Origin: a virus
Strand: one strand, 5' to 3'
IMG/VR virus record: IMGVR_UViG_3300009512_000055
Coordinates: 1-27,659 of that record
Length of the DNA: 27,659 bases
Each line of letters begins with the position of its first letter. The first letter of the stretch is position 1. Below, piece by piece: positions 5,919 to 9,967 of the stretch. The notes under the pieces were generated by a model, which made no database searches, was not told the origin of the DNA, and saw only the letters and a list, made by a program, of their open reading frames with translations. A program made the translations under genes and the position numbers.

Positions 5919-6704
5919 ATGAAAAAAAGAATTTTAGTGGCTTGTGAAGAAAGCCAAGCAGTTACAAAGGAGTTAAGAAAATTAGGTCACGAGGCTTTTA
6001 GCTGTGATTTACTTCCTTGTAGTGGAGGTCATCCAGAGTGGCACTTTCAAGAAGATTTAATAGATGTAATGAACGGATGGTTTGATTCTAAAGAAGTAAC
6101 TACAAACGATAACTTTGATTTAAGATTAGATGTTTGGAGTGGAAACGAAGATTTTGAATATAAAGGGGATAAGATAAGGCAGATAGGTTGGGAGTGGGAT
6201 ATGATGATTGCGTTTCCACCTTGTACTTATTTAGCAGTTAGTGGAGCTAGGTGGATGTATAACCCAGAAGATAAAGATTTAGATTTTAAAGACAGAAGAC
6301 CACATCCAAAACATCTAAATAGAAGACAGCAGCAATCAGAGGCTTTAGCTTTTGTTCAGCAGTTAATGGACGCGCCTATCCCAAAGATAGCAATAGAGAA
6401 TCCGATTGGTGTTATCAGCACTATGGTAAGAAAGCCAGACCAAATAGTACAGCCCTGGATGTTTGGTGATAAAGCTACTAAATCTACTTGTTTATGGCTT
6501 AAAAATCTACCAATACTTAAAGAAACTAACGTGGTAGATAAAGGAGAGTTTTTTGAATTTGTAAGTAAGAAAGGAGTAAAGAAAAGAATGCCTATGTGGT
6601 ACTATAAATCTTTACAAAACTCTAAGAACGCAGCAGAGAGAAGCACGTTAAGAAGTAAAACATTTAAAGGTATAGCAGAAGCAATGGCTGAACAATGGAC
6701 TTAG
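5919..6704 (+). CDS. Phage DNA cytosine-C5 methyltransferase-like protein
   Basis: 261 residues. The start RILVACEESQAVTKELRKLG corresponds to the SAM-binding motif I region of a divergent phage C5-methyltransferase group. FPPCTYLAVSG (C102) is the PPC motif IV with the catalytic cysteine, and AIENPIG (E160-P162) is motif VI. The SWGARW-like SGARWMYNP and the C-terminal SKTFKGIAEAMAEQW also fit this group. Between about residues 50 and 92 there is an acidic insert (DSKEVTTNDNFDLRLDVWSGNED) that separates motif I from the DMMIAFPP strand. The enzyme probably methylates cytosine in phage DNA, for protection from host nucleases. No cognate restriction enzyme is adjacent, although a PD-(D/E)XK gene follows. 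Confidence 0.72.
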   Translation: MKKRILVACEESQAVTKELRKLGHEAFSCDLLPCSGGHPEWHFQEDLIDVMNGWFDSKEVTTNDNFDLRLDVWSGNEDFEYKGDKIRQIGWEWDMMIAFPPCTYLAVSGARWMYNPEDKDLDFKDRRPHPKHLNRRQQQSEALAFVQQLMDAPIPKIAIENPIGVISTMVRKPDQIVQPWMFGDKATKSTCLWLKNLPILKETNVVDKGEFFEFVSKKGVKKRMPMWYYKSLQNSKNAAERSTLRSKTFKGIAEAMAEQWT

Positions 6705-6732
6705 TTTTATGACAACCTTTTAAAAGAATAAT

Positions 6733-7074
6733 ATGGAGCTGATAAAAATATCTAAGGAGCAAATAGAGAGAGCAAAAAAGCTCTATCCTTTCCAGGAGTT
6801 AAGAGGATCTATAACTAAAGGCAAAGGAAATCTGATAGGAGCAGTAGGTGAAATTATAGTCTATGACTTATTTACAAGCAAAGGATACAAGGTGGAGTTT
6901 AATTCTACTTATGACTATGACCTAATAATAGATGAGCTTAAAGTGGATGTAAAAAGTAAGGCTACTAATTACAAACCAGTAAACTCTTTCAACTGTAGTA
7001 TTCCAACAGCACAAAGTGGGATGAGCTTCCAGGAGTGGCCAGTAATCCTTTCCCTCACAAATCATTTACAATAA
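6733..7074 (+). CDS. PD-(D/E)XK nuclease-like protein, probably damaged at the C-terminus
   Basis: 113 residues. GKGNLIGAVGEIIVYDLFTSKGY followed by NSTYDYDLIIDELKVDVKSK is the core of a PD-(D/E)XK nuclease fold: E of AVGE, D of YDYD and the D-V-K of VDVKSK. I recall phage homologues as longer, with another 40-60 residues of strands after the CS(I/V) motif. Here the frame leaves the expected pattern after FNCSIPTAQ and stops in what looks like non-native sequence. Another frame stays open from 6999 to 7148 and looks better as coding sequence there. A frameshift or a fusion at the border of the cassette island is likely. Activity of the product is uncertain. Confidence 0.55.
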   Translation: MELIKISKEQIERAKKLYPFQELRGSITKGKGNLIGAVGEIIVYDLFTSKGYKVEFNSTYDYDLIIDELKVDVKSKATNYKPVNSFNCSIPTAQSGMSFQEWPVILSLTNHLQ

Positions 7075-7148
7075 TGATCCCTTTAAGTGGAGGAGGAAAT
7101 CAAATAGTTTACCATTTCATTAATAAATCAAATCCTCCTATTTACTAA
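6999..7148 (+). pseudogene. Out-of-frame 3' coding remnant overlapping the nuclease gene
   Basis: This frame has no start codon at its 5' end but is open for 49 codons to TAA at 7146-7148. It encodes YSNSTKWDELPGVASNPFPH, then KSFTIMIPLSGGGNQIVYHF and a short tail ending in NPPIY. The composition and codon choice look like a genuine protein end with two beta strands, more so than the end of the nuclease frame. It is either the continuation of the nuclease gene after a frameshift or the 3' fragment of another gene joined by recombination. Its stop codon touches the left side of the attC-like hairpin at 7147, as also seen for the gene that ends at 8055. Confidence 0.4.
7091..7139 (+). other. 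Inverted repeat with a long loop at the left border of the cassette island
   Basis: AGGAGGA at 7091-7097 is complementary to TCCTCCT at 7133-7139, with a 35-base AT-rich loop. There is no T-run afterwards, so it is a poor terminator. It overlaps the out-of-frame coding remnant. A comparable long-loop inverted repeat lies just beyond the right end of the island (8695-8735). Confidence 0.35.
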
Positions 7149-7194
7149 TGTTAAGAATATAAAACGGATTTTTTGCTGTTTTATATTTAGTGTT
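7147..7194 (+). repeat. attC-like hairpin 1
   Basis: AATATAAAAC (7156-7165) pairs perfectly with GTTTTATATT (7178-7187) around a 12-base loop. Outside a two-base bulge (GA), pairing continues through TTAA and G-T wobbles to AAT (7147-7149) opposite GTT (7192-7194). The GTT is the first base triplet of cassette A. A long imperfect stem with bulged bases and AA(C/T)...GTT ends is the hallmark of attC folding. Confidence 0.5.
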
Positions 7195-7472
7195 ACCCAC
7201 TTTACGGGTCATTAATAATAAACTTAAATAAAAAACGATGAAATATTTTACAGAAAAAGAGATTGAAGATTTTAAAAACGGTTCTATTAACTACCCTTAT
7301 ATGGTTGTAGAAAAAGAACAGCACGAAGTAATTGAAGTGAGCGAAATTGTAAGTATTGGCGGGATGGCTGATAATAATGGAACACCTACAAGAATAGGGA
7401 TACAAGTACACAGAAAAGGAAAGGAAGTTGAGCATCTTAGATATGTACTCGAAAAGTAGTATTGTGGGTAAC
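7192..7472 (+). mobile_element. Cassette unit A bounded by a 9-base inverted repeat
   Basis: GTTACCCAC at 7192-7200 is the exact reverse complement of GTGGGTAAC at 7464-7472. The ORF 7238-7459 fills the interval and stops five bases before the right copy. In a cassette, these two ends meet in the circular form to rebuild the outer arms of attC. The hairpin that should follow the right copy is missing or decayed (7473-7490). Confidence 0.5.
7238..7459 (+). CDS. Small cassette-borne protein, unknown
   Basis: 73 residues: MKYFTEKEIEDFKNGSINYP followed by beta-rich sequence (EVIEVSEIVSIGGMADNNGTP, then IGIQVHRKGKEVEHLRYVLEK). No recognised domain. The ATG follows an A-rich leader ending AAAAAACGATG that is shared with the cassette gene at 8147. 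The gene lies within cassette unit A with nothing else in it, as is usual for integron cassettes. Confidence 0.65.
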   Translation: MKYFTEKEIEDFKNGSINYPYMVVEKEQHEVIEVSEIVSIGGMADNNGTPTRIGIQVHRKGKEVEHLRYVLEK

Positions 7473-7490
7473 GAAAATAATAAAACACGT

Positions 7491-7709
7491 ATGGAAAAGA
7501 CAGAACAACTTAAAAGTATATTAACAGACTTAGACAATAGAGAACTAACTAAACATCAAGCACACGATTTAATATGTGTTTTATTTAGTGTTGTAGGGCA
7601 GAGCGAACAGTTAAACCCCAATGGAAGCTACTATACAGAATGTAAATGTGGGAATATGGTTCACGCACGGGACAAGAATTGCAAGAACTGTGGGAACTGT
7701 GGGCTTTAA
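7491..7709 (+). CDS. Small cysteine-rich cassette protein
   Basis: 72 residues from the ATG at 7491; an upstream TTG at 7428 lies inside the previous gene and is unlikely. The N-terminal half (TEQLKSILTDLDNRELTKHQAH and LFSVVGQSEQL) resembles short Bacteroidota proteins in which a helical region with a conserved LFxV-SEQL motif precedes a metal-binding tail. The C-terminus carries C51, C53, C64, C67 and C70, a likely zinc site. No start-side complement of its end (CCTACAAC, 7713-7720) lies before the ATG; one lies inside the gene at 7590-7597 (GTTGTAGG). The gene could therefore be a fusion made by cassette recombination, or that match is accidental. Confidence 0.6.
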   Translation: MEKTEQLKSILTDLDNRELTKHQAHDLICVLFSVVGQSEQLNPNGSYYTECKCGNMVHARDKNCKNCGNCGL

Positions 7710-7791
7710 TTGCCTACAACTGTAGCAGTATATAAAACAGTATTGGATAATTTAAGAATAGATTAATAAATAATAAATAAAATTTAAGATT

Positions 7792-8055
7792 ATGAGAAAT
7801 TTAATTAAAAGTAAAGTAAGTAAATATGTTTTATATACGCTGTTATGCGCTTTTTTAGTTGGGTGTAAAAACGACCAAAATGTAGAAGATACTATTATTT
7901 GGATTGAGAAAGCAGAAAAACCAGTACAAGTAACTATACACAGTATGAATGGTTGGACTTTAGAGAATAGATATACTTTGATAGATGCAAAAGGTAAAAT
8001 ATATAGTACTGGTTGTGTAGAATTAACACTGCCTAAAACTATAATTGCGCATTAA
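7792..8055 (+). CDS. Small cassette-borne lipoprotein
   Basis: 87 residues with a clear lipoprotein signal: basic start (MRNLIKSKVSKY), hydrophobic core VLYTLLCAFL and lipobox LVGC with C25 as the lipidated cysteine. The mature part of about 62 residues is beta-rich (VQVTIHSMNGWTLENRYTLI..GKIYSTGCVELTLP). A surface lipoprotein in a phage genome could block superinfection or alter the host surface, but it is equally typical chromosomal cassette cargo. The stop TAA (8053-8055) overlaps the AAC of attC-like hairpin 2, a common cassette feature. It is preceded by an 82-base AT-rich spacer. Confidence 0.7.
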   Translation: MRNLIKSKVSKYVLYTLLCAFLVGCKNDQNVEDTIIWIEKAEKPVQVTIHSMNGWTLENRYTLIDAKGKIYSTGCVELTLPKTIIAH

Positions 8056-8098
8056 CGCTGTGTGTATGTGGTCGTTTTAATGCCATATACACGATGTT
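8054..8098 (+). repeat. attC-like hairpin 2
   Basis: GTGTATGTGG (8062-8071) pairs with CCATATACAC (8083-8092) with one G-T wobble, around the loop TCGTTTTAATG. Pairing resumes outside unpaired bases at AAC (8054-8056) opposite GTT (8096-8098). The left arm is two bases longer than the right (18 against 16), giving bulged bases as in attC sites. Its loop shares CGTTTTAATG with hairpin 3 (8643-8685). Confidence 0.6.
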
Positions 8099-8332
8099 AG
8101 CAACTTATGAACGGATTAAATAGTAATAACTTAAAAATAAAAAACGATGTTAGAAAAAATGATTTTAAACCCAAACGAAAATTTATCTCCTGCAATAGTG
8201 CAATGGAAAGAAGATAAAGAAGATTATGTGATTGACGTACCTAAAGATATTACGAGGTCAGAATTGATTGAGTTAGTGGATGAAATTAAAAGACTTACTC
8301 AATGGTAGAAGATTAGTGAATTTATTGCTAAC
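8096..8332 (+). mobile_element. Cassette unit D bounded by an 8-base inverted repeat
   Basis: GTTAGCAA (8096-8103), which starts at the right end of hairpin 2, is the exact reverse complement of TTGCTAAC (8325-8332). The ORF 8147-8308 is the only gene between them. After the right copy comes GGTTTGGGTATGG, but no complementary arm follows, so the attC-like site of this unit is truncated. Confidence 0.55.
8147..8308 (+). CDS. Small acidic cassette protein, unknown
   Basis: 53 residues (MLEKMILNPNENLSPAIVQW, then KEDKEDYVIDVPKDITRSEL and a helix IELVDEIKRLTQW). No recognised domain. The leader before its ATG ends AAAAAACGATG, nearly the same as the leader of the gene at 7238 (both continue upstream as AACTTAAA), which suggests related cassette leaders. 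It is the only ORF inside cassette unit D. Confidence 0.6.
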   Translation: MLEKMILNPNENLSPAIVQWKEDKEDYVIDVPKDITRSELIELVDEIKRLTQW

Positions 8333-8379
8333 GGTTTGGGTATGGTTAGATTTTTAACGGATTAAAAGAAACAAATATT

Positions 8380-8625
8380 ATGGATAAAGTAAAACAATTA
8401 GCAGACGAACTGTACAACCAAAAGGTATTAGATGGTTGGAAAAATGTAAGTATGGAAACCTGCTTAAAAAGAGCAACGGATTATTATAGAATGGATGAAG
8501 TAGTTAAAAAATTAACTATACCCGTTGTTGTACAGCAAAGCGGACTTTTGTTTTGTGATTGTTATATAAAATACCCAAGAGGTAAGGGTAATTGTTATAA
8601 ATGCGGACTTAGTGAAAGACCTTAA
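8380..8625 (+). CDS. Small cysteine-rich cassette protein
   Basis: 81 residues. The N-terminus is helical and charged (DKVKQLADELYNQKVLDGWK); the C-terminus has C59, C61, C72 and C75 (FCDCYIKYP..NCYKCGL), a likely zinc site. The last attC-like hairpin starts 17 bases after its stop. It follows the truncated right end of unit D by about 45 bases. Function unknown. Confidence 0.62.
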   Translation: MDKVKQLADELYNQKVLDGWKNVSMETCLKRATDYYRMDEVVKKLTIPVVVQQSGLLFCDCYIKYPRGKGNCYKCGLSERP

Positions 8626-8642
8626 TAAAAACAATTGTGTAC

Positions 8643-8685
8643 AACGCACAAATAAGCCACGTTTTAATGTGGTTTAAATGCAGTT
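8643..8685 (+). repeat. attC-like hairpin 3, right end of the island
   Basis: AAC (8643-8645) at the left faces GTT (8683-8685) at the right. The arms, AACGCACAAATAAGCCAC and the 17 bases from 8669, pair over the inner TAAGCCAC/GTGGTTTA and the outer AAC-GCA/TGC-GTT, with bulged bases between. The loop GTTTTAAT lies in the same CGTTTTAATG context as hairpin 2. It lies 17 bases after the gene ending at 8625 and marks the last cassette border before phage sequence resumes. Confidence 0.55.
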
Positions 8686-8694
8686 AAAAAAAAA

Positions 8695-8735
8695 GGATAG
8701 GTGAGCTGGGTAATCAATCCAAACTCTACCTATCC
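8695..8735 (-). terminator. Possible terminator for leftward transcription
   Basis: GGATAGGT (8695-8702) pairs perfectly with ACCTATCC (8728-8735) around a 25-base loop. On the + strand it is preceded by nine A (8686-8694), which on the - strand is a hairpin followed by nine U. No - strand gene to the right is seen, so its use is unclear. It could insulate the late promoter region from antisense transcription or be a remnant at the island border. Confidence 0.35.
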
Positions 8736-8786
8736 TCCATCAACCAAATTGAAAAACAAACTTCTACAAAAGTATAATATTATCTT

Positions 8787-9305: not shown

Positions 9306-9727
9306 GCTGGACAGTAACAAAGGAAAGACAGAAGAAAAGGATCTCAATCTGTGAGAGCTGTGAACACTTTAGAGATAAAACTAGGACTTGTGGAAAGCCA
9401 GTAATAGGAGAGAAGATAGAACACAATGGAGAAACTAAAAAGCTCTGTGGATGCTTTATGGACGCCAAGACTAAACTAAAGTTTGGAAGCTGTCCACTAG
9501 AGCTATGGAGTAGTACTAAGGAGGAAATGAAGGAGCTACTAGATAACAAAGAGTTTCTATCAGCTATTCTGGACTCTTCAAGAGTGAGTGCTAAAGACCT
9601 ATCTAAAGCCTATCAGCTATACACTAAAATAACTGGAGCTAGAAAGTCACCTGGAAGCTGTCCACCATGTATAAAGGCTGACCTAAAGCAAGTAATTAAA
9701 AAGATAGAGAGCGCACTAGAAGATTAA
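9302..9727 (+). CDS. Zinc-binding phage protein of unknown function
   Basis: 141 residues. Cysteines C17, C20, C30, C49, C51 and C64 (ICESCEHFRDKTRTCG, LCGCFMDAKTKLKFGSCPL) form a compact metal-binding domain that I recognise as a recurrent unnamed module beside terminase genes in Bacteroidota phages. The middle part (EEMKELLDNKEFLSAILDSS) is helical, and the C-terminus has a second Cys pair (SCPPCIKADLKQVIKKIE). Its position between the sigma-like regulator and the small terminase suggests a role in late control or packaging, but no function is known. Confidence 0.65.
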   Translation: MSWTVTKERQKKRISICESCEHFRDKTRTCGKPVIGEKIEHNGETKKLCGCFMDAKTKLKFGSCPLELWSSTKEEMKELLDNKEFLSAILDSSRVSAKDLSKAYQLYTKITGARKSPGSCPPCIKADLKQVIKKIESALED

Positions 9728-9730
9728 AAT

Positions 9731-9967
9731 ATGTTAGAACAAATTATAAAGAGCTTTGGTGAAGATGAATTTTTAAAAGCTGATGGTTTTGATGAGGCTG
9801 TAATAGGATTTGAGGAGAGTAGTATGAGATTAATTTACTCTGTATCTAAATGCTTAGAGATACTAGAGAAAGATATGAGTCTAGAGGATGCCTATGAATA
9901 CTTTAATTATAATGTAATAGGAGCTTATGTAGGTGAAGAAACTCCTATCTGGTGTTGGGATTACTAA
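9731..9967 (+). CDS. Conserved small phage protein, unknown
   Basis: 78 residues. The pattern FDEAVIGFEE...RLIYSVSKCLEILEKDMSLEDAYEYFNYNV followed by GAYVGEETPIWC is one I recognise as recurring in otherwise unrelated phages, with no assigned function. All parts of the pattern are present and the length is normal. It starts three bases after the stop of the zinc protein. Confidence 0.65.
   Translation: MLEQIIKSFGEDEFLKADGFDEAVIGFEESSMRLIYSVSKCLEILEKDMSLEDAYEYFNYNVIGAYVGEETPIWCWDY

Follow-up and report, generated by a model that had tools for sequence, protein, structure and literature searches.

Clusters of attC sites carried by phages have already been described, including two sites in the Polaribacter phage P12002L, one of which, P12002L_attC2, recombined with IntI1/attI1 in E. 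coli (Qi et al. 2023, PMC9892861). The array reported here shares with this CALIN its attC-like sites, the lack of an integrase, a virulent flavobacterial phage as carrier and a DNA methyltransferase cargo (PMC9892861), and it belongs with this type of array. An initial annotation, made from the sequence alone, had considered phage-borne cassette arrays as undescribed for Bacteroidota; since the P12002L cluster was published in 2023, this claim of novelty was too strong. However, the P12002L paper reports two sites in 'divergent directions' (PMC9892861), whereas the arrays considered here reach about 13 units, occur in several phage genera, consistently carry genes reversed relative to the site and include many sites of 110-223 nt that hold gene starts.

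The cassettes of class 1 and chromosomal integrons are comparable in their AAC...GTT hairpins, their complementary ends, their precise gain or loss and the fixed anchor flanked by variable neighbours. Unlike these integrons, the present arrays have an R box reduced to GTTR, no integrase in cis and sites of up to ~220 nt. Furthermore, classic cassettes extend from GTT to GTT (the gene, then attC), whereas those found here extend from AAC to AAC (the site, then the gene). The integrons of Treponema also break the usual orientation rules, but in the part of that study considered here (PMC3607928) it is the integrase gene that is turned relative to the array, and cassette genes reversed relative to attC are not reported. 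The papers describing the Baltic phages and phage JQ make no mention of integrons or cassettes. A literature search, which lay outside most subscription journals, found no report of arrays with a site-then-gene order, nor of start codons lying within attC-type sites; the reversed polarity, the start codons within the sites and the size of the arrays appear to be undescribed so far.

The window, i.e., the whole 27,659-base record of a small marine phage, carries at 7143-8690 an island of five cassettes with AAC-hairpin-GTT sites between them, located after an early gene cut short at ~7015 and before the late region starting at ~8700 (Table 1). This island is quite probably an array of integron-type gene cassettes devoid of an integrase gene (CALIN-like). 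The cassette structure itself is more certain than the explanation as a whole, and the nature of the enzyme less so. The integron-like interpretation first proposed is thus supported overall, with the mobile unit corrected to a hairpin plus the gene that follows it (AAC to AAC).

Table 1. Features of the cassette island and of its left flank (positions in the window).
Feature	Position	Strand	Description
Left flank	6733..7074	+	Phage gene shortened by the island; longer version in the island-free relative L005
S0	7143..7198	+	First hairpin site; left box without AAC (CTAAT); GTT 7192-7194
Cassette 1 body	7192..7471	+	ORF 7238-7459, 73 aa; closing pair GTTACCCAC/GTGGGTAAC (7192/7472)
S1	7470..7592	+	Long-loop site; AAC 7470-7472, GTT 7590-7592; stem score 14.3, pairing 7479-7492/7572-7585; encloses the ORF2 start codon and N-terminal module
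Cassette 2 (AA^C to AA^C)	7472..7719	+	ORF2 7491-7709; closing pair GTTGTAGG/CCTACAAC (7590/7720)
S2	7718..7844	+	Long-loop site; AAC 7718-7720, GTT 7842-7844; stem score 13.0; encloses the lipoprotein gene start
Cassette 3	7720..8055	+	ORF3 7792-8055; closing pair GTTATGCGC (7842)/GCGCATTAAC (8056), one bulge
S3	8050..8102	+	Short hairpin site; AAC 8054-8056, GTT 8096-8098; stem score 11.9
Cassette 4	8056..8331	+	ORF4 8147-8308; closing pair GTTAGCAA/TTGCTAAC (8096/8332)
S4	8330..8529	+	Long-loop site; AAC 8330-8332, GTT 8527-8529, 194 nt between; stem of 18 positions, score 15.4, arms 8338-8358/8503-8523; encloses the ORF5 start and N-terminal module
Cassette 5	8332..8644	+	ORF5 8380-8625, cysteine-rich C-module; closing pair GTTGTACA/TGTACAAC (8527/8645)
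S5	8639..8689	+	Terminal short hairpin, array anchor; AAC 8643-8645, GTT 8683-8685; followed by an A-run, then the inverted repeat GGATAGG..CCTATCC

The five small genes, one of them encoding a lipoprotein, and the AAC/GTT hairpins separating them are present as initially annotated, with a GC content of 31% in the island versus 36% in the remaining record. Six hairpin sites are found, i.e., five intact sites and a degenerate one in 7143-8689, a CALIN being defined by at least two attC-like sites within ~4 kb. ORF2 consists of an N-module and a zinc-ribbon-like C-module joined at GTT. ORF3 is lipoprotein-like, with a VGC lipobox-like motif and a stop codon overlapping the closing AAC, and the right arm of S2 codes for a part of its signal peptide. 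Searches of Pfam and PHROGs assigned none of the five island proteins to a confident family, and a BLAST search of the island against the phage collection gave no match. Several sites had been considered as truncated, which does not hold: most are intact long-loop sites (S1, S2 and S4) and only S0 lost its AAC. The long-loop sites looked truncated because their loops, 117-194 nt from AAC to GTT, contain the 5' end of the next gene. The AAC-to-GTT distances of 103 sites fall into three groups (~37-85, 110-123 and 178-223 nt), with a sharp peak at 118. Single-strand DNA folding gave z values of -4.0 for S0, -1.8 for S2, -1.3 for S3, -0.7 for S5 and +0.9 for S1, those of S1, S3 and S5 being unremarkable and the folding energy of single sites being a weak test here, in place of which genome-to-genome comparison was used.

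Each cassette body opens with GTT and a short word and closes with the complement of this word. It had been proposed that two units obey this rule; the rule stands but the count does not, as five units do, four of them with an exact closing of 8-9 bases and the lipoprotein unit with a single bulged base. The circular form of a cassette would carry one complete site, the ends of its body being complementary. A detector demanding both a hairpin between AAC and GTT and the closing rule identified three fully scored closed units in 7100-8750, versus a mean of 0.004 in 1000 first-order shuffles of this region, none of which ever contained two or more units. It found no match in the remaining window outside 7100-8750 and recovered the known array of Shewanella phage M16-3, used as a positive control. 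Over 1.49 Mb of loci, shuffling left three matches versus dozens of units in the real sequence. The closing rule alone, applied to 8-mers in the island region, gave five matches versus 1.06 expected.

Comparison of the same locus in related contigs indicates how the island varies. Contig L002 is nearly identical to the window. In L005, the island is absent and the gene that it cuts is longer: positions 1987-2274 of L005 match 6728-7015 of the window at 91%, and the L005 reading frame runs on. In L006, cassette 2 (95.6% identical) is joined straight to S5, exactly cassettes 3-5 being missing, with the junction ...CCTACAAC directly followed by GCACAAATAAG. L008 and L013 carry other genes at this place, between the same kind of sites, and those of L008 include a DNA methyltransferase (PF01555). 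The expectation that related phages would lack the genes of this locus or carry different ones was thus borne out. L010, compared with L013, was listed with L006 as further indel support for AAC-to-AAC units, this comparison involving only 25 bases at a contig end and having little weight. A second small gene of the window (9731-9967), with no hairpin site noted at its locus, is either missing from L005 and L006 or replaced there, the match jumping from 9726-9729 to 9974.

A covariance model, R1, was built from 19 short sites. S3 and S5 match it with 44.5 and 42.2 bits, respectively, by construction since both are training sequences of R1, and S0 with 23.6 bits (E 0.041). R1 detects additional sites, almost always in gene sense, one of the locus sets searched being chosen by the methyltransferase and thus biased towards arrays with that cargo. 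Among 65 more distant terminase relatives, R1 finds one site only, and therefore the array is not standard in this phage group. Long arrays are carried by isolated and named phages, with ~13 units in Flavobacterium phage stinky9-1 and 8 in Polaribacter phage P12002S; Polaribacter phage P12002L and Tenacibaculum phage JQ also have such arrays. R1 had no match in classic integrons and nothing matching the stinky9-1 array was found in plasmids. Narrow scans of bacterial genomes revealed neither a relative of ORF2 nor an occurrence of one hairpin pattern present in four viral contigs. It had been suggested that the same hairpins would flank other small genes in chromosomal arrays: they do recur, and this is shown in phages. 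Between different genes, the viral contigs L085, L086, L087 and L088 carry short sites whose loop, TTAAGCGATAGCGACCCGATAGGGTTAA, is almost the same in all four; this loop pattern was found in none of the bacterial genomes scanned.

The unit that moves was delimited from indel junctions between close relatives in a set of 13 Baltic Sea Flavobacterium phages and two Polaribacter phages. Among 20 junctions, 18 lie in arrays, and both ends are at AAC in all 18 and at GTT in none, some of these junctions sharing history and not being independent events. For example, one 506-base unit is missing from mumin6-3 compared with filifjonk9-1, and P12002S has three extra units (1094 bases) compared with P12002L. 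Whole cassettes are thus gained or lost precisely at one strand-specific point, in the 18 junctions as well as in L006 at the locus studied here. By contrast, the blocks of class 1 integrons from plasmids, used as a control for block ends, extend from GTT to GTT. Linkage leads to the same boundary: in unit pairs with a body similarity of 80% or more, the upstream hairpin is kept in 70 of the 77 pairs versus 22 for the downstream one (upstream alone shared in 51, downstream alone in 3), the 77 pairs not being independent. Judging from these sequence comparisons, the mobile unit is the hairpin with the following gene, from AAC to AAC, and its polarity is reversed relative to that of classic cassettes, because of this upstream linkage and of the AAC junctions as opposed to the GTT-to-GTT blocks of class 1 integrons.

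The flanks of the sites provide independent support for this reversed polarity. In gene sense, they read AACG in 87% and TGTT in 88% of cases, while the bottom strand of a classic attC reads AACG..TTGTT; by its letters, the coding strand carries the signature of the attC bottom strand. Read plainly, these would be classic attC sites whose genes were inserted in the opposite orientation, throughout whole arrays. GTT is followed by R in 98% of 103 sites and the next position is T in 58%, so that of the R box consensus GTTRRRY/RYYYAAC only GTTR is kept. The order gene then own attC, with a cut G^TT 3' of the gene, was not found. No intI (TIGR02249) is present in cis in the window record, where a complete integron would have one. 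The island is not a classic integron and was not filed as such, because R-box consensus, gene polarity and integrase in cis were each tested and each differ from those of classic integrons.

It could be considered that an integrase-less cluster of the classic type, which is common and known in phages (PMC9892861), was acquired from a host integron in a single capture and has since evolved as ordinary phage genes. This is very unlikely, as near-identical phages differ in gene content at exact cassette borders, indicating recent exchange (mumin6-3 versus filifjonk9-1, P12002L versus P12002S), and as the genes are reversed relative to the sites.

The ends of the arrays are more constant than their content. 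On its gene-3' side, the array has an identical end in every Baltic phage (13 of 13), namely AAC joined to TACAATATTACATG, and this end is preceded by at least seven different cassettes; the opposite end is constant in the six Baltic phages checked. In the window family, the anchor is S5, which also follows cassette 2 in L006, while L008 and L013 have another site as anchor. A fixed anchor with variable neighbours is the pattern expected from insertion at an attI-like point, and the anchors of the window family and of L008/L013 may be functional attI sites. In L008 (4834-4890) and L013 (3212-3274 and 5358-5420), the last array site looks inverted (AACACC..TTCGTT) relative to the other sites and is followed by a fixed gene.

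As initially annotated, no integrase is encoded in the window: its record contains no tyrosine recombinase, and PF00589 was found in 0 of 16 array phage records. Serine recombinases (Resolvase) were found in 0 of 15 array phage records, and so was Y1_Tnp (PF01797), which would be expected for IS200/IS605 or REP-type elements. NinG/Rap was found in 7 of 15 array phages and is missing from the window; it was rejected as a common recombinase given this distribution. Because no recombinase is encoded in array phages, the enzyme is probably supplied in trans.

The gain and loss of units could instead be due to the recombination or replication machinery of the phage itself (annealing, template switching at hairpins, a NinG/Rap-like junction resolvase) acting through the short TAACG identity of the left box. 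The lack of a site-specific recombinase in these phages, the occurrence of NinG/Rap in some of them and the junction overlaps, which span 5-32 nt and always include TAAC, are consistent with such a process. However, GTT boxes have a similar short identity (TGTTR) and no junction lies there, NinG is absent from the window and from several array phages, template switching leaves the complementary body ends and the fixed anchor unexplained, and a P12002L site works with IntI1 (PMC9892861). This makes the phage's own machinery a rather unlikely explanation.

For a cassette exchanged by an integron-type enzyme, the following organization and steps can be proposed. Each cassette has the structure AA^C-hairpin site-GTT-gene body-AA^C. 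During infection, the coding strand, which bears the attC bottom-strand signature, would become single-stranded and fold. An integron-type tyrosine recombinase provided in trans by the host or a co-infecting element would then cut at AA^C, and the cut end would be exchanged with either a second site or the attI-like anchor. As the gene runs out of its own site, about one third of the cassettes would start translation in the hairpin loop and read through GTT into the body; such a site would additionally serve as a 5' UTR and encode an N-terminal module, modules of this kind occurring on unrelated bodies.

Among the cassettes with an ORF in sense, the start codon lies inside the site, with reading across GTT, in 24 of 72, and GTT falls in frame 0, as a codon of the ORF, in 18 of these 24; avoidance of stop codons in the other frames may be part of the cause of this excess. 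These features, i.e., sites located at the 5' ends of genes and enclosing the start codon in a third of the cassettes, could suggest that the hairpins act solely at the RNA level, as terminators or 5' UTR switches belonging to ordinary small genes of the phage. This is hardly conceivable, as an Rfam scan of the island gave no match, the blocks move from AAC to AAC with indels respecting the site borders, and the bodies obey the closing rule. A regulatory side role of the hairpins alongside mobility is possible.

The N-terminal modules look protein-coding and portable. The N-module of ORF2 recurs in the unrelated L084 with 30 identical residues and three base differences, each of them synonymous; there, GTT links it to another C-terminal part. 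Other N-modules are found on different bodies in L104 and stinky9-1 (89% of 18 residues) and in L008 and L084 (59% of 27). No fresh junction at GTT was found among the 18 array junctions. One could tentatively propose, as a possibility that is doubtful at present, that these arrays are a phage-adapted branch of integrons where the site lies ahead of the gene and also serves as its 5' UTR and N-terminal coding module, exchange shuffling N-modules onto C-terminal bodies at GTT and the recombinase being outside the known integron integrases or coming from flavobacterial hosts. The array of L084 also carries a repeated element, AACAAGGGGCTAACCGCACATTTACTAAAGAACAATGG..., at 109-180, 2208-2230 and 6117-6185, outside the site model.

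Most of the cassette genes are small and have no assigned function; DNA methyltransferases are frequent among them. It was reported that LMO9 phages plating poorly on LMO6 lack a specific methyltransferase that the well-plating ones have, and morran9-1 and lillamy9-1 were named in a re-growth test (Nilsson et al. 2020, PMC7077304). In hemulen6-1, an 843-base methyltransferase gene makes up one exact cassette, which is found in hemulen, snork, sniff, filifjonk and mumin but is missing from lillamy9-1, lillamy9-6 and morran9-1. The cassette methyltransferase is putatively the same kind of gene as the one linked to plating (PMC7077304). Since the cargo includes DNA methyltransferases, one likely benefit of the arrays is a fast turnover of small accessory genes, those for anti-restriction included, and cassette exchange may let phages change their anti-restriction genes. 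The arrays of isolated virulent phages with known hosts, which differ between close relatives at exact cassette borders, raise the questions of which enzyme moves cassettes in a group with few known integrons and of whether a site of the attC type can be located both upstream of a gene and within it.

Two other observations concern the methyltransferases. Tetrasphaera phage TJE1 (L175), a reported attC carrier, encodes at 318-1046 a methyltransferase that is 48% identical to that of the L008 cassette. The methyltransferase cassettes of hemulen6-1 (L177) and snork9-1 (L181) have bodies that are 99% identical and different upstream hairpin arms; both arms differ together yet pair, as though by a swap or by co-variation of the stem.
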